NCBI GenBank assembly: GCA_013140455.1 | Contig: JABFSU010000018.1 | Span: 1 to 35,876, forward strand | Reading direction: 5' to 3' | DNA length: 35,876 nucleotides | Source: Nitrospira sp. | Lineage (GTDB): Bacteria > Nitrospirota > Nitrospiria > Nitrospirales > Nitrospiraceae | Shown: positions 15,376 through 31,881 of the stretch, in pieces | Numbering within the stretch: the first letter of the stretch is position 1 | How the letters are laid out: every line of letters begins with the position of its first letter | Made by a program: the position numbers and the translations under genes | The notes under the pieces: generated by a model | Database searches by the model: none | The model's input: only the letters and a program-made list of their open reading frames with translations | Told to the model about the DNA's origin: nothing

Positions 15376-16833
15376 TTATCCCACGACGTGCAGCTTGATC
15401 AGATTCGTGCCCCCCGGTTGTCCGATGCGAGTCCCGGATAGGATCACAATCCGTTCTCCAGGCTTGGCCAGTCCCTCCGCTTTCAGCCGTCGCTCGGCCT
15501 CGTCCACCCGTGCGTCCGTCTGCTCGATCTGCGGCATGGTGTAAGGGCGTACACCCCAATAGAGGGCCATCCGTTTTCTGACCGGGTCAAACGGAGTGAA
15601 GGCAATGATCGGCGCAGCCGGTCGCTGCTTCGAAATGAGGCGAGCCGTCGTTCCCCGCTCGCTGAAGGCGACGATCGCGCCGGCGGCGATCGCCCTGGCG
15701 GCCGAGGCCGCTGCGGTACAGATCGCTTCGGGGAAGGCCATGTCCCCCCAATCGGTTTGACGTTTGGGTCTCACGCCCGGTTCGGGACCTTCCTCCGCCG
15801 CACGAATGATGCGATCCATGACCTGGACGGTTTCAATCGGGTGCGCGCCGATGGCCGTTTCAGCCGACAGCATCACCGCGTCGGTGCCGTCGAACACGGC
15901 ATTAGCGACATCCGAGGCTTCCGCTCTGGTCGGGCGCAGGGCCTGTGTCATCGACTCCAACATTTGTGTGGCCGTGATGACGAGGCGGCCTCGGCGGTTG
16001 GCTTCCATGATGATACGCTTCTGCAACAGCGGCACAGCTTCAGGACTCAGCTCAACGCCCAGATCGCCCCGCGCAATCATGACTCCGTCCGCTTGGTTCA
16101 GGATCGCGTCCAAGGCCGTCACGGCTTCGGCCCGTTCGATCTTGGCAATGATCGGCACAGTTCCGCCGCATTCGGCGACCAATGCCCGCGCAGCCACGAT
16201 GTCTTCAGGCCCTCTGACGAAGGAAAGCGCCAGGTAATCCACGCCGTGAGCGATGCCGAACCGGATGTCTTCCCGGTCTTTGTCGGTGAGGGTGGGTGCG
16301 CTGACGAGAGTGCCCGGTAAATTGATGCCCTTGTGCGAGGTGATCGTCCCGCCGGTGGCGACGGTGCATTCGACGGCCCCGCCGGTGATACGGTCGACCA
16401 TCAGTTCAATCAGTCCGTCGTTGATCAAGATCCGCGCGCCGGGTCTGAGGTCACGGGCGAGGTAGGGGTAGGTGACCGGAATTTCGGGGATCGTGGAGTG
16501 CGCCGCGGTGACGGACCTGGCGCCAAGCTGACCGCCGGACCGCGCCAGCATCGTCTGTAGCCGCACCGATTGGCCCGCTCTCAGTTCGAGCCCCTCATCG
16601 GGTAGCTCGCCCACGCGAATTCTGGGTCCTTGGAGGTCCTGGATAATCGCCACGGCAGCCTGGCGGCGTTCCGCTGCCTGACGGATTGCCGCGATGGCGG
16701 CCGCGTGGGTGTCATAGTCTCCATGGGAGAAGTTCAGTCTGGCGGCATCCATGCCATATTCAATGAGCCGGTCCAGCATCGTCAGCGAACTGCTGGCGGG
16801 TCCGATCGTACAGACTATCTTTGCCTTTCGCAT
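15376..16833 (-). CDS. pyk: Pyruvate kinase
   Basis: The last enzyme of glycolysis, phosphoenolpyruvate + ADP to pyruvate + ATP, in the cytoplasm. The protein has 485 residues, normal for the family. Landmarks are the N-terminal strand KAKIVCTIGPASSS, the K+/nucleotide-binding NFSHGDYD, the Mg/substrate motif MIARGDLGVE, and ATQMLESM. The C-terminal allosteric domain (about 360-485) is present. I start at the ATG at 16833, preceded by GAGGAG, rather than the much longer open frame to 16965 that would run into the neighbouring divergent gene. It shares a 118-bp divergent intergenic space with the phosphofructokinase fusion, which suggests joint control of lower and upper glycolysis. Confidence 0.96.
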   Translation of the reverse strand: MRKAKIVCTIGPASSSLTMLDRLIEYGMDAARLNFSHGDYDTHAAAIAAIRQAAERRQAAVAIIQDLQGPRIRVGELPDEGLELRAGQSVRLQTMLARSGGQLGARSVTAAHSTIPEIPVTYPYLARDLRPGARILINDGLIELMVDRITGGAVECTVATGGTITSHKGINLPGTLVSAPTLTDKDREDIRFGIAHGVDYLALSFVRGPEDIVAARALVAECGGTVPIIAKIERAEAVTALDAILNQADGVMIARGDLGVELSPEAVPLLQKRIIMEANRRGRLVITATQMLESMTQALRPTRAEASDVANAVFDGTDAVMLSAETAIGAHPIETVQVMDRIIRAAEEGPEPGVRPKRQTDWGDMAFPEAICTAAASAARAIAAGAIVAFSERGTTARLISKQRPAAPIIAFTPFDPVRKRMALYWGVRPYTMPQIEQTDARVDEAERRLKAEGLAKPGERIVILSGTRIGQPGGTNLIKLHVVG

Positions 16834-16850
16834 GTCACTCTCCTCAGCCC

Positions 16851-16879
16851 TTGACAAGAAATGGCGGACACCCAATGAT
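16851..16879 (+). promoter_or_regulatory. Candidate sigma-70 promoter of the PFK fusion gene
   Basis: TTGACA (16851-16856), 17 bases, then AATGAT (16874-16879), which matches four of six -10 positions. Transcription would begin near 16886, leaving a leader of about 66 bases that holds two overlapping hairpins. Confidence 0.42.
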
Positions 16880-16909
16880 GCGCTCGTCCACGCCCGGTGA
16901 TGTGCGCCA

Positions 16910-16935
16910 CCGACTGTAGTCGGGCCGACAGCCCG
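16910..16935 (+). promoter_or_regulatory. Two overlapping leader hairpins before the PFK fusion gene
   Basis: CCGACT-GT-AGTCGG (16910-16923) is a perfect 6-bp hairpin or operator-like palindrome. CGGGC-CGACA-GCCCG (16921-16935) is a second perfect stem that reuses the last three bases of the first, so both cannot form fully at once. The ribosome-binding site GAAGGAGG starts six bases after the second stem. Confidence 0.3.
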
Positions 16936-16951
16936 GAGGTGAAGGAGGGGC

Positions 16952-19291
16952 ATGCAGAGTACCACAGATTCGCTCGATTTCGTGACGATTGAAGGCCTGC
17001 TGGCCTACGGAGAACAGTTCGCGCGACAGCCGGCGATCGACGGCGTGTCGGGGCCCGCCGCTCCGGCTCCATCGAACGACCCTGCGAACAGCCGCGCCGC
17101 GCGCGCGCGTCAGGCGATGGCGCAGATCAAGGCGTTTGTCGACCTTGCTCATGCTGGATTTCCCGATGCCCAAGCCTATCGATCGGCCAGGCAAGCCGTG
17201 ATCGATGACGCCTGCGCCGGTGATCAGCTGGTGTTTTTTGCCGCATGGAACCGTGTGCTCGCGGAGGGCGCGCTCCAACCCTTGATGCGGGCGCCGATCG
17301 GATCGGTATTGAAGCCGACTCAGCGGCGTCCGGTGGCGATTGTGCCGCGTGCGCAGCTCACGCCGCAGCTGGCGGACGGGCGTATCGTGCTCGATTTGGG
17401 CGATGAACGATTCTGGCTCCTGCCTCGAGAATTGTCCGGACGCACGCTGCTCTTTACCATGCGCCACGGCATTTCCCGCGTCGAGAGTAAAACGCATCGG
17501 GTTGGTCGCCGCCTGGCGAATCAGTTGGATCAGGAACGGGGTGTGCCACGGGCTGACGTCGTGGGGGCTGCGCTGGCCAGGATGGTCGGCGTGGTCGGCC
17601 AGCAGCTGGATTTTCTCCATTTGTCCAATTACCTGAATCCGAGCAGGTTTCTCCACTTCATCAGCCGGAGTCCCAACACACGGCAACTCTTTGAGCGCGT
17701 CGGGGCCGCACTGGTCCGTGACCCGCTCCCGCCATCCGGGGCGGCGTATGCGCCTGCTTTAGAGTCGTCGGATTTCGGGTGGATCACCGGCGTCGAAAAG
17801 ACGGTGGAGGCTCAGGAACTTGCCAAAGCTTTTGGCGTCGATGTGCCAACCGCGAAACGTCTGATCAAAGATCCCTTGTATTGTTATCCCGGCGGGAATT
17901 CGTTTTTTGATCTCTACGTCGATGTGATCGATGGACTGCATCAAATGGGGGACGCGCATCAGGGCCAGGTGGCCTGCCTGTATACGCACAGTTCGACGTT
18001 GCGGGCCCTTATGATTTATTTGGACGCGCGCCCGTTTCACGAAGCCTTTACCGAATTCAGCGACTACAAAGAGAGTCAGGACAATGTCGTGCTGCTGACG
18101 TTCGAAAAAGGGCACTTGTCGGGCTACTCCACGGCGGTCGGATTGTCGGAGCGGGAACGGGCCTCGCGGGATTCATGGATGGCGGTCGAGCAGGTGCGCA
18201 AAGACCGGGTAACGCTGAAACCTCGACAGATCAAACGGATCGTGGCGTTGGTCTCGGGGGGAGATTTCGCGGGAGCCGGCGCCGCATTGAAAGAGTTGCA
18301 TGTGCAGGGGGCTCGATTCGGTCTGGATGTTCACTTCGTCCGGCACGGATTCCTCGGGCTCGCCAACAATTGGATCGAAGCGGTGACCGAAGAGGATACG
18401 CGCGGCATGAGCAGCCACGCGAGCAGTCCCATCGGAAGCAGCCGCTTCGAGGATTTTAAGGACGAACAGGTCCAGCGGGCGGCGGTCGGGCACCTGGCGC
18501 CCTTTCTGGAAGACGCCGCGTTGGTGGTCCTGGGAGGCGACGGAAGTTTCCGCGGGGCACGGGCGATTTACGAAGGGTTCGGCGTGCAGGTGGTGGGCAT
18601 CCCCGGGACCATCGACAACAACCTCGAGGGGACCATCTCGCTCGGCTACCATTCGGCCATGGCCCTGGCAGATCAGTCGATTGAGTCTCTCAAAGCGACC
18701 AGTGCCGCCATGGGAAGCGTATTTTTTGTTGAAGTGATGGGCGCGGGGTCGGGGCATCTGGCGCTCGCCTGTGCCTATCAAGCAAGGGCTGAGGGCTTAT
18801 TGGTCAACGAACATCCCGATCCCGATGCCTATATCGATGAGGTGATTCTCGGCACGTTGAAGCGCACGTTGGGAGTGCCCAACAAGAGCCACTTGTTCGT
18901 CGTGGCCGAACGAACCCCCCATCGCCATCATCGGGATGGCGGGGTGCATGGCCTGGTCGAGTACGTGGCCGGTGCGATCGGCGGATGGCCCCAGCGTCAC
19001 GCGCGGCCCGGTCAGTATCCATTGACGCTCGCGACCAAAGCCACCATTCTCGGCCACACGTTGCGGGGCGCTCCTCCGACCCCGGAAGACAAAGCCATTG
19101 CCCAGCATCTGGCCTATGAGACGGTCCATCGTTTAGTGGAACGTCCGGAGGATGTCGTCGGTTGTATGTTGGCGTATCGCGAGCGCGGGGCGATTGACGC
19201 GATCCCGCTCCATGCCGTGTCGCCCAAACAGTTCGACTGGGATCTGTTTGCCAGGATGCATGGCACGGAGTTGCGCAACGGGCCGCCGTGA
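16952..19291 (+). CDS. Histidine phosphatase-phosphofructokinase fusion protein
   Basis: A 779-residue cytoplasmic fusion. Residues about 165-400 form a histidine-phosphatase (phosphoglycerate mutase-like) domain: the phospho-acceptor RHG is at 171-173 and the second His is in [11 protein letters not shown] (H346). Residues about 428-770 form an ATP-type phosphofructokinase domain: SGGD (435-438), GGDGS (528-532), GIPGTIDNN (catalytic-base Asp at 555) and [10 protein letters not shown]. Two usual PFK features differ: TIDND reads TIDNN, and the fructose-6-phosphate-binding MGR reads MGA (596-598, Ala for Arg). The pairing recalls eukaryotic PFK-2/FBPase-2, but with a PFK-1-type kinase and reversed domain order. 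GAAGGAGG precedes the ATG. It is divergent from pyruvate kinase, consistent with a glycolytic role; catalytic direction and substrate are uncertain. Confidence 0.88.
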
Positions 19292-20884: not shown

Positions 20885-22225
20885 TTACTGCCGGCTTCCT
20901 ATGATGTCGACAGCGATCTCTGCGGTGGGGGAGGAATCCTGGCTGACTACATAGGTGGCCCGTTCCTGGGAATCTGCCGGATGCGGAGTCATCACCGACT
21001 CCTGAATGAGATCAGGCGAACGACGGTTGAGGAGCGCGGCTTCCTGCCTGGAGATGGGGCCGAACGGGGCAGGGGAAAGGCGGACGATGACGGTTCCACT
21101 GTTTGCGGACAACGGGAGACGCTGCCGCTGTCCTGCCTGGATCTTCATGGAGATGTGGCCGGTCTCTTTCAGCGGCAGCAGCAGTTGTGCGGTGGTTTCT
21201 CCCGCGTGCTGCCAGACTTGTATGTACCCGTCCCGATTGGTTTCTAACGTGATGTGTACGGGCGTTGAACTCGAAGTCGCCGTTGCCGCATCGACTTCCT
21301 GTTCCTGCCCGTCGGGAGTTCGGATCACAAAACTGTAACGGAGTCCGAGGGGCTTGCCGGGTGTTACAGGGCCGGCAGCTTTGCTGAGCTGGGAGAGCTC
21401 GTCGAGTTTTTGCTTGAAAGGGCTTGCCTGTGGCTCTGCTTCGGCCAGGGGTTTCATGGCGCGTTCCGGGGCCTGGGCCACTCTCCCGGTCTCGTGGCCA
21501 TAGAACAACCCACGTGCGCTCACGGTTGAGAGACCAGCTTCCGGCAAGGATGCTCCGGCCGTTGTCTGCGCCGTCTTGGTCTCAGGCATGGCCGCTGCCG
21601 GTGGTGAACCGGCGGCAAGCGGACGCTCGGTTATTGCAGCAACTTCCTCTGAAGCCTTTCCCATTGCGGAAGGCGGTATTGGTGCCTGTTTCCGATTTTC
21701 TTCCTGTTTGTTCTTCGGCGCATCATCGCGAAGGGTATCAGCCGGAGAGTCTTTCTTGACGGCGGTCGCGGAGAGTCCCTGATTCACCCGGGCTTTTGCC
21801 GTTGACTCAGCCGGTTGGTGGACTGACGGTTCTGTCGCTGCTGGCGACCTAGATGGCGTTGCCTCGGTCGCGGCTGAGCGGGCGGCTTGCTGCACACTGT
21901 CCTGATAGACCTTGGTGCCGAGGACGACCGCGAAGGCGGCGGTGGCCAGTCCGCCTGCCAGCACGAGATTGGACGGCCGCCGGAACCAGTCCAGCCAGGA
22001 TGCCGTGCTGCCGCCGGTCGCAGGGCTCGTCTTGTTTAAGACATGGAGCAAACGACGCCGCACGTCGGGATCGGTCAATAGTTCCTTCAACGCCTGCTCG
22101 TCGGCCAGGGCATCGAAGAGTTGCTGGTCCTGGAGCGCGGCCTGGTATAGGCGTTGTTTCTCCTCCGGCGTCAGCGTATCCGCCGCGAAACCACCGAGGA
22201 GTTGTTCGAGTTCGTGTTCGGCCAT
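20885..22225 (-). CDS. Probable membrane anti-sigma factor with DUF4384-like C-terminus
   Basis: A 446-residue single-pass membrane protein. The N-terminal cytoplasmic domain (1-80; LEQLLGGFAADTLTPEEKQR, LADEQALKELLTDPDVRRRL) resembles anti-sigma regulatory domains, without the zinc-binding His/Cys motif. A transmembrane helix follows at about 88-105 (NLVLAGGLATAAFAVVLG). A long Ala/Pro/Thr-rich linker leads to a periplasmic beta domain at about 320-400 (PVHITLETNRDGYIQVWQHA) similar to DUF4384. It starts three bases after the sigma factor gene ends, so the two are translationally coupled. I infer that it holds the sigma factor at the membrane and senses an envelope signal. Confidence 0.75.
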   Translation of the reverse strand: MAEHELEQLLGGFAADTLTPEEKQRLYQAALQDQQLFDALADEQALKELLTDPDVRRRLLHVLNKTSPATGGSTASWLDWFRRPSNLVLAGGLATAAFAVVLGTKVYQDSVQQAARSAATEATPSRSPAATEPSVHQPAESTAKARVNQGLSATAVKKDSPADTLRDDAPKNKQEENRKQAPIPPSAMGKASEEVAAITERPLAAGSPPAAAMPETKTAQTTAGASLPEAGLSTVSARGLFYGHETGRVAQAPERAMKPLAEAEPQASPFKQKLDELSQLSKAAGPVTPGKPLGLRYSFVIRTPDGQEQEVDAATATSSSTPVHITLETNRDGYIQVWQHAGETTAQLLLPLKETGHISMKIQAGQRQRLPLSANSGTVIVRLSPAPFGPISRQEAALLNRRSPDLIQESVMTPHPADSQERATYVVSQDSSPTAEIAVDIIGSRQ

Positions 22226-22228
22226 TGT

Positions 22229-22726
22229 TTATTCCCAGCTGCTGCCCATTGATGCCAGGAGCTGCTTGCGGCATCGAAGATCCCATGTGTAGATCGTGTT
22301 TACGGAGTTCTGTCCCATCAGCTTTTGAATCTCAGGAAAGCTCTTCCCCTCCAATTTCCACTTGAAGAGTTCGCGGCAGCGCTCGCCGAGTTTGGCGATC
22401 GCGGCGATCAACCGGTCCACGCGCTGTTGTTGATCCAACTGTGTGGCCGGATCAGCGCCGGGATCGGCCAGCGGGAGTTCATCAACCGACTCCTGATTAT
22501 ACTCGCCTCGCCGGAAGGTCTTGCGGTGAGCGTCGAGCATCTTGAACCGCAGGACCTGAAATGCCAACGGAACGAGTTCAGTCAGCTCGGTAACTGTAGG
22601 ATACTTCTCATGGAGGACCGCCAGCGTCTCCTGAGTCAGATCCTCGGCCTGGTCTCTCGATATCCGTGATGTCGCGAAGGCGAGAATCCTTTCGCGAAGC
22701 GCGGCGAGTATCTGATTGCGGTCCAT
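22229..22726 (-). CDS. RNA polymerase sigma factor, ECF-like
   Basis: A 165-residue alternative sigma factor with regions sigma-2 (about 10-80; RISRDQAEDLTQETLAVLHE, LAFQVLRFKMLDAHRK) and sigma-4 (about 108-160; LGERCRELFKWKLEGKSFPE, NSVNTIYTWDLRCRKQL). The short size and two-domain plan fit the ECF group. The gene after it is the probable anti-sigma partner, and the gene before it, an amidohydrolase, ends 12 bp upstream, so all sit in one run. I see no autoregulatory promoter directly upstream, because the amidohydrolase gene fills that space. Confidence 0.9.
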   Translation of the reverse strand: MDRNQILAALRERILAFATSRISRDQAEDLTQETLAVLHEKYPTVTELTELVPLAFQVLRFKMLDAHRKTFRRGEYNQESVDELPLADPGADPATQLDQQQRVDRLIAAIAKLGERCRELFKWKLEGKSFPEIQKLMGQNSVNTIYTWDLRCRKQLLASMGSSWE

Positions 22727-26065: not shown

Positions 26066-28312
26066 CTATCGCCTGCGGATCAGCAGGTGCCCTAACCAGA
26101 CCAATCCGACCATGCAGCCGGCTGTGAGGGCGACCACAGAACCTGGAATCGTTGCCGCTTCGACTGGTACGGGTGCAACACGCAGTTCAGCTGGAAACGG
26201 GCGCGGCGGCACTGCGATGGTTTTCCATTGCGATCGATCGGATGGAACTCGCTGTTGATATTCGTCCAGTGAGGCGACCGCATAGGTGCCCATCGCGCGG
26301 CTGGAGGGAATCTGAGGGATGTGGATGTAGAGTACGGCCTCGACATCTTCGCGCAGCCATTGTTCGAACGGCGTCAGTACTCGCTGCGGGTCTGTCTGTT
26401 GAAGCAGATGCAGGGTGTCGTTTCCGATTGCTTCGAAGGTCATGCGCGGCAACAGTCGGGTGAGTTCCTCTGAAAAATACCGATAGACTTTCAGGCCGCT
26501 GTCCAGGCTCCGATCAGAGGCTGCCATGTAGACATAGCCGGCCGTCGCCTTCAGCCGGTTGCTGGGGCCTTGCAGGGGAATCTGCCAGCCGAGCGTACGC
26601 AGTTGGTCTATGCTGAATCCTGCGCAGTTGAGCAGCGAGTGATCGTAATCCAATTCGTGCCGGTAGAAGCGGCGAAACACGTCTTGGATGGCGACTTGAT
26701 AGGCAGCCGGGATACGGTCCTGCTTCAGGACCAGCGCGAGGAGCGCGCTCGGCCGATAGTAGGATTGCCCGCTGTTGAGGTCCATGAGGTAGTTATCCAT
26801 CGGGACCATCGCGGGGAGAATCCCTTTTTCACTGACCACGTCCGCGTCGTAGAAATTGTTCACGATCCAGTCGGCCCATTCGCCATGCGGACCGACGCGT
26901 CCCGTGACGATGCCGAAATGTCCGCCGTGTGCCTCGTCGTCATCGCCTTGCGCGCCGTTCAGGATCGCCGCGAGCACCGGTTTCCCGGCCCATGATGCAA
27001 CGGCGTTTCCCCACAAACGGTGGGTCGTGATGCTGTCGCCGGGAAGCCGGTCTGCGTTTTCCATAAGATGCGAGATCGTTCGATCTTCTGCATCGATTGT
27101 GCGTGCATGCTCGGGCGTCAGCAGAAAGTCTTCCGGCCAGATGGTACGGGCTTCGAACAACGGTCCTTCTGCCGTCAAGACAGTGCGACCGCGCAGCCGC
27201 AAGGGGTGTGAGCTGAAGAACTGTGCCGTGGCCTCATTGTAGTACGACCGATTGGTCGGGAGTTTCGGCGTCAGTCGAAAGGGACGGCGTCCGCTACCTG
27301 GGATGTCCAGATAGGTGTGGTTTGTTGAGAGTGTAGCTTGCGTGATCAATTCAGGTGAGCCGAGCCACGCGAGAAAGGGCAGTTTCGCGGTGGAGTGTTG
27401 GCCTTCCTGTGCGGCGGGAATCGCAATCGTCTCATCGGTAAAGTACCACAGAGCTTGCGGCGGTGCGGGGCAGTCGGTGCAGCGGCCGGTTGTGACGGTG
27501 AAGGCTGTTCCATCAAAGAGCCCGAGCGGTTCATGCTGTAGAGGGGATTGGCCTATCTGCCCTTGTGTTGCGGGCGTTGTACTCGCAGGCTCTGGTGTGG
27601 CCATGGCAGGGGCTTGGCTAAACAGGAACGTTGCCATGATCAGGAGGCAGGCAATTTTGGTTGTTCTGGAGCGAGCCGGTGCGCTTGAGCCGATGTGTGA
27701 GCCGGGCTGAGTACGAAGCTGTCGATCATGCATTGGGGCGAGCGCCAGTTGCGCTGTGGTCGCGCCGATCAGGGCCATGAACATGTCCCACTGCGTGTCC
27801 CATTCGTCGCCTTGGGTGGCGAGAAAAGTTGTGGCGGATTGGTTGAATACGAATGCGGTGGCGCCTTCCAAGAGTTCATAGAGGGCGCTGAACCCGAGGC
27901 AGGTTGAGCAGACTAGGAAGAAGAGCCAGCCTCCTCGTTGCAGCGGGGACGTCCGCAGGAGGAGTTCGCGCATCACGATGGCGGGCACAAAACCCTGTGC
28001 CAGGTGTCCGAGACGATCGTAGTAATTGCGCGTGAGCCCGAAGGCGTCTTGTACCCATCGGCCCAGGGGAACTTCGGCATAGGTGTAATAGGCGCCGATC
28101 ATGAGAATGATCGCGTGCCCGGCCATCAGTCGATACGCCAACGGTGTGAGCGGGAACCGTTCATGAGTACGGATCAGAATCGGAATCCCGATCAACACGG
28201 GGAAGACCTCCAGTAGCCAGACGCCGTGATGTTTCGGGTTGAGACCTGAAAGGATCAGGGCCATCACGACGAGCATGAGGAGCACGCGCCGTTCCGTGAG
28301 AAGGGACGTCAT
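26066..28312 (-). CDS. DUF2238 membrane domain fused to a possible permuted-papain domain
   Basis: A 748-residue protein. Residues 1-200 are a DUF2238 (YjdF-like) membrane domain with about six helices (GRWVQDAFGLTRNYYDRLGH; FSALYELLEGATAFV; QGDEWDTQWDMFMALIGA). A further hydrophobic segment at about 220-238 (IACLLIMATFLFSQAPAMA) resembles a signal or anchor. The large region 240-715 appears extracytoplasmic and contains GGHFGIVTG (H465) and LLNCAGFS (C563), the His-before-Cys order of permuted papain-like amidases. A last helix (about 725-745) ends in LLIRRR. Its ATG overlaps the stop codon of the aas gene. Function unknown; a role in lipid or lipoprotein remodelling is inferred from the neighbour. 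Confidence 0.75.
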   Translation of the reverse strand: MTSLLTERRVLLMLVVMALILSGLNPKHHGVWLLEVFPVLIGIPILIRTHERFPLTPLAYRLMAGHAIILMIGAYYTYAEVPLGRWVQDAFGLTRNYYDRLGHLAQGFVPAIVMRELLLRTSPLQRGGWLFFLVCSTCLGFSALYELLEGATAFVFNQSATTFLATQGDEWDTQWDMFMALIGATTAQLALAPMHDRQLRTQPGSHIGSSAPARSRTTKIACLLIMATFLFSQAPAMATPEPASTTPATQGQIGQSPLQHEPLGLFDGTAFTVTTGRCTDCPAPPQALWYFTDETIAIPAAQEGQHSTAKLPFLAWLGSPELITQATLSTNHTYLDIPGSGRRPFRLTPKLPTNRSYYNEATAQFFSSHPLRLRGRTVLTAEGPLFEARTIWPEDFLLTPEHARTIDAEDRTISHLMENADRLPGDSITTHRLWGNAVASWAGKPVLAAILNGAQGDDDEAHGGHFGIVTGRVGPHGEWADWIVNNFYDADVVSEKGILPAMVPMDNYLMDLNSGQSYYRPSALLALVLKQDRIPAAYQVAIQDVFRRFYRHELDYDHSLLNCAGFSIDQLRTLGWQIPLQGPSNRLKATAGYVYMAASDRSLDSGLKVYRYFSEELTRLLPRMTFEAIGNDTLHLLQQTDPQRVLTPFEQWLREDVEAVLYIHIPQIPSSRAMGTYAVASLDEYQQRVPSDRSQWKTIAVPPRPFPAELRVAPVPVEAATIPGSVVALTAGCMVGLVWLGHLLIRRR

Positions 28313-31300
28313 CCGTGGGTGCTACCCGCGGCCAATCGCTCCATTGCAATGCGCTTGACCCCGCGAAGATCCAACTTGCCGGTGCCGAGGATCGGCAGCG
28401 CGTCCACTTGTACGAACTGATTGCGCGCGGGGAGAAAGAGGTTCGGCAGTCCGCTTGCGGCGAGCTTTTCAAGGATCTCCGGGAGGCCGGCTTCGTCGAT
28501 GGTGTAGAGCACGGCGAGGCGTTCGCCCTTTTTCTCGTCCGGGAGGCCGGTCACGGCGAAGACTTGCATGTCGGCGCCGGCCGCCTGCTGCAGGGCCTCT
28601 TCGACTTTGCCGTGGGGCACCATCTCGCCGCCGATTTTGGAAAAGCGGGAGAGCCGGTCGGTGATCGTGAGGAAGCCGTCATCGTCCAGGGTCGCAATGT
28701 CGCCGGTGATGTACCAGCCGTCCTTCATCGCCTTGGCCGTGAGGTCTTCCCTGCCGAGATAGCCGCTCATCACGTTCGGGCCTTTGACCAGCAACATGCC
28801 GGATTGGCCCGGCGGCAGAATGGCCCAGGTCTCCGGATCGACGATGCGCACCGACACACCGGGGAACGGCTGGCCGACGGTGCCACGGCGCGAGGCGACT
28901 TGATAGAAGCCGGAGGCGCGGAAGTCCGGGCAATTGGACGAAATGACCGGGGCGCATTCCGTCACGCCGTAGCCTTCCACTGGAACGATTCCAAACTTGT
29001 CTTGGAACGCTTGTACGAGGCGAAGCGGGAGTTTTTCAGCGCCCGTGAGCACGACACGCAGGTAACTGAACTGTTCCGGCGTGCAGCGGCGCAGATAGAG
29101 TTGCAAGAAGGTCGGGGTCACGACCAGCAGGGAGATGCGGTATTTGCTGCAGAGCTCGCCGATCGCGCCGACATCCAGTGGTGAGGGGTGAAAGACGATG
29201 CCGGCGTTATGGCGTGCGTAGAACCAGAGCAGCATGTAGCCGAAGGAATGGAAGAAGGGCAGAATGCCCAAAGCACGATCGGCTTTGCTGATGTGGATGA
29301 CCTGTCCGGCTCCCTCGACGTTTGAGTTGATAGCGAAGTGTGAGAGCATCACGCCTTTCGGTTCGCCGGTGCTGCCGCTGCTGAAGATGATCGTGGCCAG
29401 GTCGTCCAGGCTGATCGGGGCGGTGCGACCGCAGGCCCGCTCTAACAATCCGATCGGCGCAAAGAGGCCAAGGAACAAGGCGACAAGTTTTGCACTGCCG
29501 GAAATCGTCTTGGCGATATCCTCCAGATACAAGATGGTGACGCCGTCGGGAATTTCCAATTTGGCTTTCTCGATAAACAGCCGGCTGGTCAGTAGCGTCT
29601 TCAGGCCGGCCTGGGCGACAGCCGCCTCCAGTCCAGTTCGGCCGACGGTGTAATTCAAATTGACGCTGGTCTTTCCGGTCAGTGCGGCGGCGACATTGAG
29701 CAGCGCGCCGGGGACACTGGGCGGCAACAGCAGCCCGACGTAGCGTTGGCCGACCCAATGCGGTTTCATCGCGCGCGCCAGAGTAATGGTGCCGAGCAAG
29801 GCTTTGAGTCCGGTGATTGATGGGCGTGTGGCGTCCGCCATGGCAAAGGTGAGGGGATGCCGGCGCCAGGCTGAGATGACGGGGCGATGGATCGGCTGCT
29901 GGTCGGCTTTGCGCAATCTCCAGGCGGCTTCGCCCAGCTCGCGCACGAGTCGGCGGAGTTCATGTGCCGGGGTCTCAGCCGGTTGCGGCGCGCCGAAGGA
30001 AACCGTCACCGGATAGGGAATCTGTTCAGGAAGCTTCCAGATGAAACGGCCTTTCACGAAGCTGAACATGCTGCCCCAGACGCGATCCAGATGGACCGGA
30101 ATGATCGGGACCGTGCGGCCTTTCACGATGCGTTCGAAGCCACGGCGGAATGGCAAGAGTGTGCCGGTTCTGGTGATTTGCCCTTCCGGGAAGATGCAGA
30201 CGATCTCGCCGTCGTCGAGGGCCTGACCCGCGCTGCGCAGCGCGCGCAGGATGATCCGCGGTCCACCCGACGAGGAAATCGGGATGACCCGCATGATGTT
30301 CATCAACCACTTGAATAACGGATGGGTCGCGTAGGCGGCATCGACCACGAAGCGGACAGGTCGGTCGAGGCTGGCAATGAGGAGGAAACCGTCGACCAGC
30401 GACATGTGGTTCGGCACCAACAGCGACCCGCCGGTCTGCGGTACATTGGCCGGTCCGATAATTCGCACCCGATAGAGCGTTTTGGTCAGGAGAATGAGAA
30501 CGAGACGGACGAACGCGCTGGGGACCAGCCAGAGGGCCCACAGCGTGCCGACGAAGGTGGCCGCCGCCGCCGCGAGCAGAATGCCGGTGGTGGAGAGGCC
30601 GAGTAAGGCAAAGACGCCGCCGCTGAGCGATCCCATGAGCACGCCACTATATGTGCACGTGTTCGAGAGGGCAATAATGCTGCCCCGCCGGTCGGCGGGG
30701 GCATGCCATTGGATCAGGGCGTTCACGGGCACGACGAAGAGTCCGCAGGACAAGCCGAGCCCTGCCATCAAGGTGAGTGTCCCGTAGAGTCCGGGGCCCA
30801 AGAGCCCCAGCAGCAGGAGAAACATGCAGATTCCGAAGGCACCCATCGGAATCAATCCGTATTCGACCCGCTCACCGGAAAGTTTCCCTGCGAGTATCGC
30901 GCCGGCACCGATGCCGATCGATAGGAGTGCGAGGGGGAGGCCGGAGAGCGAGTCCGAGAGATGCAGCGCCGTCTTGGCGTAGACCAGCATATCCTGGCCG
31001 ACCAGGCTCGCGATCGTCCAGAAGAAGGCGGAGCCGAGAATGGCGAGGAGAAGTGTCCGGTTGGAGCGGACGGCCTGAACGGCTTTTCCCAGAGTGGAGC
31101 CGAGACCTCCCTCCGTACGGGCCACAGGAACGGCCGGGACGGTCAGTGATGCGCCGAAGCCGATGAGTGAGAGCAGCGTGAGTGCCAGCGGAGCCAGCCA
31201 GGTGGATGAGCCCACGCCATCCAGCAGCATCCCACCGATGGCGGTGCCGCCAAGAATTGCGAGGAAGGTGTTTAATTCAAGAATGCCGTTGCCCTGGGTG

Positions 31301-31737
31301 AGCCGGTCATGCGGCAAAATTTCCGGCAAGATGCCGTATTTCGCCGGACTGAAGAGGGCACTGTGGACGCCCAAGCAGCCAAGGACGATCAGAGGCAGGA
31401 TGCCTCCGGCCGGATCAACGAAGAGCGCGACTGTTCCGGCGGCCATGAGGCCGACCTCGACGGCTTTCATGGATACGATGATCGTACGCTTACTGACGCG
31501 ATCCGCCACCACGCCGGCTACCAGCGAGATCAGCATGAGCGGCAATGTGAAGACGACGAAGGTCAGAGTCGTTTGGGATTGAGAGGCCGATTCCAGATCC
31601 GCGCCTGGTGCCATATTCCCCGCGACCTGGCGAATGCCGAGCAACGCCACCATGAGCTTCCAGGCGTTGTCGTTAAAGGCGCCGAAAAACTGTGCGATCA
31701 AAAGACCGCGAAGCGGATGCGACTGTGGTGTGGTCAT
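28309..31737 (-). CDS. aas: LplT-PlsC-Aas fusion: lysophospholipid importer, acyltransferase and acyl-ACP synthetase
   Basis: A 1142-residue inner-membrane protein with three parts. An MFS transporter of the LplT type (1-425) imports lysophospholipids; a PlsC acyltransferase (about 430-620; NHMSLVD with H444, FPEGQITRTG) and an AMP-binding acyl-ACP synthetase (about 640-1130; FSSGSTGEPKGVMLSH, GYGVTECAPVIS) reacylate them. The separate E. coli proteins LplT and Aas do the same job, so the fusion joins one repair pathway. I chose the ATG at 31737; an in-frame TTG at 31761 is the only longer option, and neither has a good ribosome-binding site. It is translationally coupled (ATGA) to the DUF2238 fusion gene. 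Confidence 0.93.
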   Translation of the reverse strand: MTTPQSHPLRGLLIAQFFGAFNDNAWKLMVALLGIRQVAGNMAPGADLESASQSQTTLTFVVFTLPLMLISLVAGVVADRVSKRTIIVSMKAVEVGLMAAGTVALFVDPAGGILPLIVLGCLGVHSALFSPAKYGILPEILPHDRLTQGNGILELNTFLAILGGTAIGGMLLDGVGSSTWLAPLALTLLSLIGFGASLTVPAVPVARTEGGLGSTLGKAVQAVRSNRTLLLAILGSAFFWTIASLVGQDMLVYAKTALHLSDSLSGLPLALLSIGIGAGAILAGKLSGERVEYGLIPMGAFGICMFLLLLGLLGPGLYGTLTLMAGLGLSCGLFVVPVNALIQWHAPADRRGSIIALSNTCTYSGVLMGSLSGGVFALLGLSTTGILLAAAAATFVGTLWALWLVPSAFVRLVLILLTKTLYRVRIIGPANVPQTGGSLLVPNHMSLVDGFLLIASLDRPVRFVVDAAYATHPLFKWLMNIMRVIPISSSGGPRIILRALRSAGQALDDGEIVCIFPEGQITRTGTLLPFRRGFERIVKGRTVPIIPVHLDRVWGSMFSFVKGRFIWKLPEQIPYPVTVSFGAPQPAETPAHELRRLVRELGEAAWRLRKADQQPIHRPVISAWRRHPLTFAMADATRPSITGLKALLGTITLARAMKPHWVGQRYVGLLLPPSVPGALLNVAAALTGKTSVNLNYTVGRTGLEAAVAQAGLKTLLTSRLFIEKAKLEIPDGVTILYLEDIAKTISGSAKLVALFLGLFAPIGLLERACGRTAPISLDDLATIIFSSGSTGEPKGVMLSHFAINSNVEGAGQVIHISKADRALGILPFFHSFGYMLLWFYARHNAGIVFHPSPLDVGAIGELCSKYRISLLVVTPTFLQLYLRRCTPEQFSYLRVVLTGAEKLPLRLVQAFQDKFGIVPVEGYGVTECAPVISSNCPDFRASGFYQVASRRGTVGQPFPGVSVRIVDPETWAILPPGQSGMLLVKGPNVMSGYLGREDLTAKAMKDGWYITGDIATLDDDGFLTITDRLSRFSKIGGEMVPHGKVEEALQQAAGADMQVFAVTGLPDEKKGERLAVLYTIDEAGLPEILEKLAASGLPNLFLPARNQFVQVDALPILGTGKLDLRGVKRIAMERLAAGSTHG

Positions 31738-31881
31738 GCGAAGTGCCTGGGTGAAGTGCAAATGTTCGCATAACTATGGGGCAAGCTCATGCGGAGGTCA
31801 AAGAAAACGTCGCTTGGAGCGAAGGAATGCGGGTATTTCATCGGTCGCAGGGGACTGCTTCCGGTTATCTCGTTCCGGCGG

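Follow-up and report, generated by a model that had tools for sequence, protein, structure and literature searches.

The genus Nitrospira is a major group of nitrite oxidisers, to which the complete ammonia oxidisers also belong. In a contig of Nitrospira sp. (JABFSU010000018.1, assembly GCA_013140455.1; positions 1–35,876, hereafter the window), a pyruvate kinase gene (pyk) is divergently transcribed from a gene that encodes a single protein with a histidine-phosphatase-fold domain followed by a domain of the bacterial 6-phosphofructokinase (PFK) type, PFK-1. We refer to this protein as the fusion. Its kinase half retains an ATP-type donor site, whereas four residues of its fructose 6-phosphate (F6P) site are replaced in every copy that we aligned.

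Architecture of the fusion protein

The first-pass annotation of the window, made from the sequence alone, had proposed that an RHG phosphatase and a PFK share one chain, that the phosphatase comes first and that the kinase is of the bacterial PFK-1 rather than the PFK-2 type. Each of these proposals was borne out by domain and fold searches. The kinase half matched PF00365 over residues 429–726 (E 6.6e-52; 177 bits against a cut-off of 30.9), with no match to 6PF2K in Pfam, and residues 426–767 of the model aligned with Escherichia coli PFK (1pfk) over 214 residues at 2.7 Å (Z 24.9). The preceding domain matched His_Phos_1 (PF00300) weakly (E 0.041; 14 bits for the whole protein and 17.2 bits for the domain, against a cut-off of 21.7); searches with the domain alone returned the match in 10 of 11 relatives, with a best E of 1.3e-6. 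Its fold was that of branch 1 histidine phosphatases, with Z scores of 15.6–15.8 for residues 164–395 (4ij6, 15.8 over 193 residues at 2.8 Å; 4ij5; 1ebb, 15.6), and PFKFB3 and mycobacterial Rv2419c were among the Foldseek matches. The AlphaFold2 model was built from an alignment of 36 homologues and had a mean predicted local distance difference test score (pLDDT) of 69.

The fusion is old and conserved. A chance open reading frame (ORF) or an assembly product can be excluded because full-length homologues occur in more than 60 genomes, closed chromosomes among them. Mean pairwise identity was highest in the PFK part (83%, compared with 74.5% in the phosphatase part), and residues 126–160 of the N-terminal region form a very conserved stretch (89%). 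A literature search found no paper describing the fusion.

The joining of a sugar-phosphate kinase to a histidine-phosphatase-fold domain in one chain is also seen in eukaryotic PFKFB. However, the kinase of the fusion belongs to a different family (PFK-1-type, not P-loop 6PF2K), the two domains come in the opposite order and Ser272 stands where the phosphatase should have its catalytic Glu. The fusion is therefore not a PFK-2/FBPase-2, and the likeness is one of layout only.

Table 1. Features of the fusion gene and of the adjoining pyruvate kinase gene, in window coordinates.
Feature	Position	Strand	Description	Basis
Fusion gene	16952..19291	+	779 residues, ATG start; N-terminal helical region, histidine-phosphatase-fold domain, PFK-1-type domain	
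N-terminal region, residues 1–160	16952..17431	+	mostly helical	AlphaFold2 secondary structure
Histidine phosphatase fold, branch 1, residues 164–395	17441..18136	+		VIA-align to 4ij6
R171-H172-G173	17462..17470	+	contains nucleophile His; invariant	homologue alignment
S240-P-N-T243	17669..17680	+	invariant; at SxLxR site of phosphatases, second Arg not conserved	
S272	17765..17767	+	at position of catalytic acid Glu (LxE of GpmB/CobC); Ser in 44/45; adjoins E/D271 and invariant D274	
N316	17897..17899	+	at Glu of GES motif; His in 31/45 homologues	
H346	17987..17989	+	second catalytic His; invariant	
ATP-PFK (PFK-1/PfkA) fold domain, residues 426–767	18227..19252	+		Pfam; fold comparison with 1pfk
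G528-GDGS532	18533..18547	+	ATP-type donor site (G104 equivalent is Gly)	kinase alignment
P551-GTIDNN557	18602..18622	+	base D555 (D127 equivalent) kept; N557 is D129 equivalent, Asn in 60/60	
S589	18716..18718	+	at Arg162 position	kinase alignment
M596-G-A598	18737..18745	+	Arg171 equivalent is Ala in 60/60	
E620-HPDPDAYID (residues 620–629)	18809..18838	+	fusion-family motif, highly conserved, absent from E. coli PfkA	
Residues 653–664	18908..18943	+	E653 (sugar-site E222 equivalent), then fusion-specific His-rich loop; H657, H659 and H660 invariant	
K696	19037..19039	+	at Arg243 position	kinase alignment
H702 and R705	19055..19066	+	H249 and R252 equivalents; phosphate-site residues kept	
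Pyruvate kinase gene	15376..16833	-	divergent neighbour; adjoins fusion in most Nitrospirales	Pfam PK and PK_C
Pyruvate kinase–fusion intergenic region	16834..16951	.	118 bp; one sigma-70-like site on the + strand, 16851-16879	

Active sites of the two halves

For the kinase half, we aligned 60 fusions with 22 canonical Nitrospirota PFKs and E. coli PfkA, whose numbering is used for the residues that follow. G11, D12, R72, D103, G104, G108, G124, D127, M169, E222, H249 and R252 were kept in all 60 fusions. Gly at both 104 and 124 is the ATP-type pattern, and its presence in every fusion rules out a pyrophosphate (PPi)-dependent PFK. By contrast, four acceptor-site residues were replaced in all 60: D129 by Asn (N557 in the window's protein), R162 by Ser or Thr and once by Asn (S589), R171 by Ala (A598) and R243 by Lys (K696). 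The canonical Nitrospirota PFKs kept D129, R162 and R243 without exception, and R171 in 21 of 22. In E. coli PFK, R243, H249 and R252 complete the F6P site and R171 acts in catalysis. Arg162 binds the F6P phosphate across the subunit interface (PMC12203962). The first-pass annotation had picked out TIDNN (residues 553–557) and MGA (596–598) as changes to F6P-binding residues; both substitutions are kept in all homologues collected, and the alteration goes further than proposed, extending to the partner-subunit arginines R162 and R243. Effector-site residues are altered as well (R21K, R25V, R54E, R154K and K213N).

Overall, the fusion shares with bacterial PfkA (E. coli 1pfk) the fold, the donor signature and the D127, E222, H249 and R252 equivalents, but is only about 25% identical to it and differs in the acceptor and effector sites, in extra conserved loops (Table 1) and in the N-terminal phosphatase-fold domain. 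It scored 169.2 bits against the 6-phosphofructokinase equivalog model TIGR02482, well below the cut-off of 371.35. Thus, by fold and sequence the fusion belongs to the PFK-A superfamily, yet neither its residues nor its score are those of a standard 6-phosphofructokinase. In a tree, the PFK parts of the fusions grouped as a single clade whose stem measured 3.78 changes per site, with little change afterwards. Such a long stem followed by strong constraint indicates that function or the handling of substrate has shifted, and not that the protein is decaying. An unfused canonical-type PFK elsewhere (locus L102, 168-1160) also lies on a long branch and has MGA for MGR, yet keeps TIDND.

Residues of the phosphatase half were mapped by alignment with E. 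coli GpmB and CobC; because sequence identity is low, the assignments depend on the spacing of the motifs and on the order of the fold elements. The annotation had named loss of the RHG motif in homologues as an observation that would count against it, and we found the motif invariant. Together with the fold and the second catalytic His, RHG is what the domain has in common with branch 1 enzymes such as the PspA-type phosphoserine phosphatases (4ij5 and 4ij6) and YhfR/PhoE (1ebb). It differs from them in having Ser for the acid Glu, an unconserved second Arg (the Arg of SxLxR maps to T243 or to the variable position 244), Asn or His for the Glu of the GES motif and a long helical insertion before the second strand. 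A candidate assignment with the acid Glu in YPGGE and K283 as the second Arg was dropped, as the GpmB/CobC alignment places the acid at S272. Since the usual acid Glu and second Arg are lacking, ordinary phosphomonoesterase activity appears doubtful from the sequence; binding of a phosphorylated metabolite is more likely.

Distribution, alternative enzymes and the pyruvate kinase neighbourhood

A scan of 84,980 species, which detects close relatives only, returned 48 fusion loci that were 64–94% identical, all from Nitrospira or other Nitrospirota except one labelled Nitrosospira (a NOB2 enrichment bin). No relatives were found in the viral contigs or plasmids searched. Among 295 Nitrospirota genomes, the full fusion was confined to the class Nitrospiria, outside which only canonical PFKs occurred. 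The majority of the nitrite-oxidising Nitrospira sampled have it. In the window's family and in a sister family of the same order, the fusion is the sole PFK-A. Nine genomes of other orders (G119, G157, G159, G175, G183, G232, G254, G270 and G290) carry a separate canonical PFK of about 290–385 residues beside a fusion with the same residue pattern as the Nitrospirales fusions. None of these nine canonical enzymes has D104; they are of the G104, non-PPi type, so they cannot be set aside as PPi enzymes, and their presence argues against the fusion being redundant. A different arrangement was seen in another Nitrospirota family, in which two PFK genes lie in tandem (L101, 1104-3345; L105, 974-3056), one with Asp104/Lys124 as in PPi enzymes and the other with Gly104/Ala124.

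Neither the fusion nor a canonical PFK was detected in about 20 genomes of the order within the 295-genome set, many of them 99% complete. Among the large, 99% complete Nitrospiraceae genomes that lack the fusion and any PFK-A are G097, G193, G145 and G009; a PfkB-type kinase is present in G009 and in none of the other three. Great Lakes Nitrospira have likewise been reported to lack PFK (PMC9239080).

The genome of the window is 95.5% complete and contains no other PFK-A. The annotation had held that a fully active single-domain PFK elsewhere, together with no activity from this protein, would speak against its proposal. As regards another PFK in this genome, that case applies only in part: a PfkB-type hexose kinase is present (G000 C103:51026-51952, locus L110; TIGR03828, 1-phosphofructokinase, 320.8 against 292 bits in NCBIfam), which excludes the fusion as the only possible PFK of this genome, although most relatives lack such a kinase. 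Its occurrence is patchy, with 10 of 80 class genomes positive, six of them with the fusion and four without. The suggested look for a fructose-bisphosphatase (FBPase) turned up one class I enzyme and no GlpX or FBPase_3 in the window's genome, so the fusion is not the genome's only FBPase; class I FBPase was found in 78 of 80 class genomes, regardless of which PFKs, if any, they encode. Transaldolase is also present, and a role for the fusion in replacing it, as a sedoheptulose 7-phosphate kinase, is therefore not favoured. Co-occurrence of the fusion with glycogen phosphorylase showed no clear pattern.

We then compared gene neighbourhoods at 51 fusion loci, comprising the 48 from the species scan and three of the sister family. 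A pyk gene adjoins the fusion at 42 of them, lying upstream on the opposite strand in 25, downstream on the same strand in 15 and downstream on the opposite strand in 2. Several of the nine loci without an adjacent pyk are on short contigs or belong to other orders, and no pyk was found near the fusion in the loci of other orders. In the sister family (f2; L081–L083), the neighbouring gene is a different pyk paralogue, 37% identical to that of the window, showing that the pairing outlived a change of the partner gene. The persistence of the pair through these rearrangements is good evidence for a shared glycolytic role. Pyruvate kinase was absent from 4 of 20 fusion-less and 0 of 46 fusion-only genomes (Fisher p 0.007), a weak association, as the test ignores kinship and small genomes account for three of the four.

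Two further observations concern these neighbours. In a 2.0-Mb Nitrospira genome without the fusion, the pyruvate kinase gene is interrupted by an in-frame stop codon and by a shift of frame (G105 C32:10872-11876). At a fusion locus without an adjacent pyk, a gene that by eye encodes phosphoglucomutase lies two genes downstream of the fusion (L018, 11265-12908).

Possible functions of the fusion

The reading that we favour, tentatively and at a little short of an even chance, is that the fusion works as an ATP-dependent kinase, that its sugar-phosphate site has been rebuilt, and that its phosphatase-fold domain regulates it at the same control point as pyruvate kinase. The fusion itself, its residue pattern, conservation and distribution and the pyk neighbourhood are observed, and we infer the kinase activity, the changed acceptor and the regulatory role of the phosphatase fold. 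In the kinase half, the γ-phosphate of ATP would be transferred to a hydroxyl activated by D555. The acceptor would probably still be a sugar phosphate, as E653, H702 and R705 are kept, but would be held differently: S589 and K696 stand in for both arginines of the partner subunit, and a candidate replacement is the conserved His-rich loop that follows E653. The histidine-phosphatase-fold domain would most likely bind a phosphorylated metabolite and regulate the kinase, and would not run the reverse reaction. The fusion would act together with pyruvate kinase at the glycolytic control point.

Several points weigh against this reading. The AlphaFold2 model is weak over residues 574–705, the sugar-site half of the kinase (pLDDT below 50), so the roles suggested for the new kinase motifs lack structural support. 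In the phosphatase half, the acidic residue at 271 (Glu or Asp) or the invariant D274 might, judging from the alignment, stand in as the acid. Adjacency to pyk is also what would be expected of a plain glycolytic PFK, and in 40 of 46 fusion-only Nitrospirales genomes sampled no other PFK candidate was found (E 1e-30).

The last two points lead to the main rival, namely that the fusion serves Nitrospira as an ordinary F6P 1-kinase of glycolysis, holding F6P in a re-engineered site while the phosphatase fold only regulates it. We consider this somewhat unlikely. In its favour, the fusion would be the sole source of the activity in those 40 genomes, it adjoins pyk in three orientations and even a different paralogue in the sister family, and it keeps the base, the ATP site and the E222, H249 and R252 equivalents. 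Moreover, glycolysis has been stated to be complete in all sequenced Nitrospira (PMC8115632), and 'complete glycolysis' is likewise ascribed to them elsewhere (PMC7078480). However, not only R162 but also R171, D129 and R243 are replaced, nine genomes of other orders pair a canonical PFK with a fusion that has the same residues, and some nearly complete Nitrospira genomes manage with neither protein. In most sampled genomes the PFK step can rest only on the fusion, and 'complete glycolysis' therefore depends on a protein with a changed F6P site in all copies examined. That statement helps to support claims on glycogen and sugar use in Nitrospira, and the fusion makes it directly testable.

The fusion might also bring to light a substrate new to kinases, or a new way of linking a phosphatase-fold sensor to glycolysis. 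A more daring proposal, which we regard as rather improbable, is that the fusion is a new sugar-phosphate kinase whose product is not fructose 1,6-bisphosphate but some other metabolite, such as a regulatory bisphosphate, which the built-in phosphatase fold senses or removes. It would then be a bacterial counterpart of PFK-2/FBPase-2 in logic and not in descent, controlling glycolysis together with pyruvate kinase, and most Nitrospirales would be left without any classical PFK.

Two other explanations are less likely than either the favoured reading or a plain PFK. In the first, which seems improbable, neither domain is catalytic and the protein is a sensor of ATP and sugar phosphate that controls pyruvate kinase or another partner. 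The conserved pyk neighbourhood and the replacement of four active-site residues in the kinase and at least two in the phosphatase would fit such a role, and there is a precedent in eukaryotic PFK-1, in which a former second active site became an effector site (PMC12203962). The C-terminal regulatory half of that enzyme resembles the fusion in our alignment, with Asn at the D129 equivalent and loss of the R171 equivalent (TVSNN and MGG, compared with TIDNN and MGA). Yet in the eukaryotic half both the base D127 and the ATP site are gone and the R162 and R243 equivalents persist, whereas the fusion shows the reverse: D555, the Mg/ATP-site residues and the R72 and E222 equivalents are all invariant.

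The least probable explanation is a bifunctional enzyme whose kinase would form a phosphorylated sugar and whose phosphatase would remove it again, a convergent analogue of PFK-2/FBPase-2. It can appeal to the two domains being joined in all homologues with invariant RHG and second His, and to FBPase-active members of the histidine-phosphatase fold such as Mycobacterium tuberculosis GPM2 (PMC4535450), but is opposed by the family-wide change of the acid Glu to Ser, the unconserved second Arg and GES Glu, and the class I FBPase that occurs with or without the fusion. The earlier suggestion that the protein runs both directions of one step is weakened accordingly, as the genome has an FBPase of its own and neither the usual proton donor nor the second Arg is present in the phosphatase part; the alternatives offered alongside it, another substrate or a regulator sugar, are likelier.

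Elsewhere in the window, a gene on the minus strand (28309-31761) encodes a 1150-residue protein that combines a major facilitator superfamily transporter, a phospholipid acyltransferase and an AMP-binding domain. A small ORF at 22229-22726 resembles, by eye, an extracytoplasmic function sigma factor, and the 446-residue protein encoded just downstream of it (20885-22225, minus strand), for which there was no Pfam match, is possibly its anti-sigma partner.
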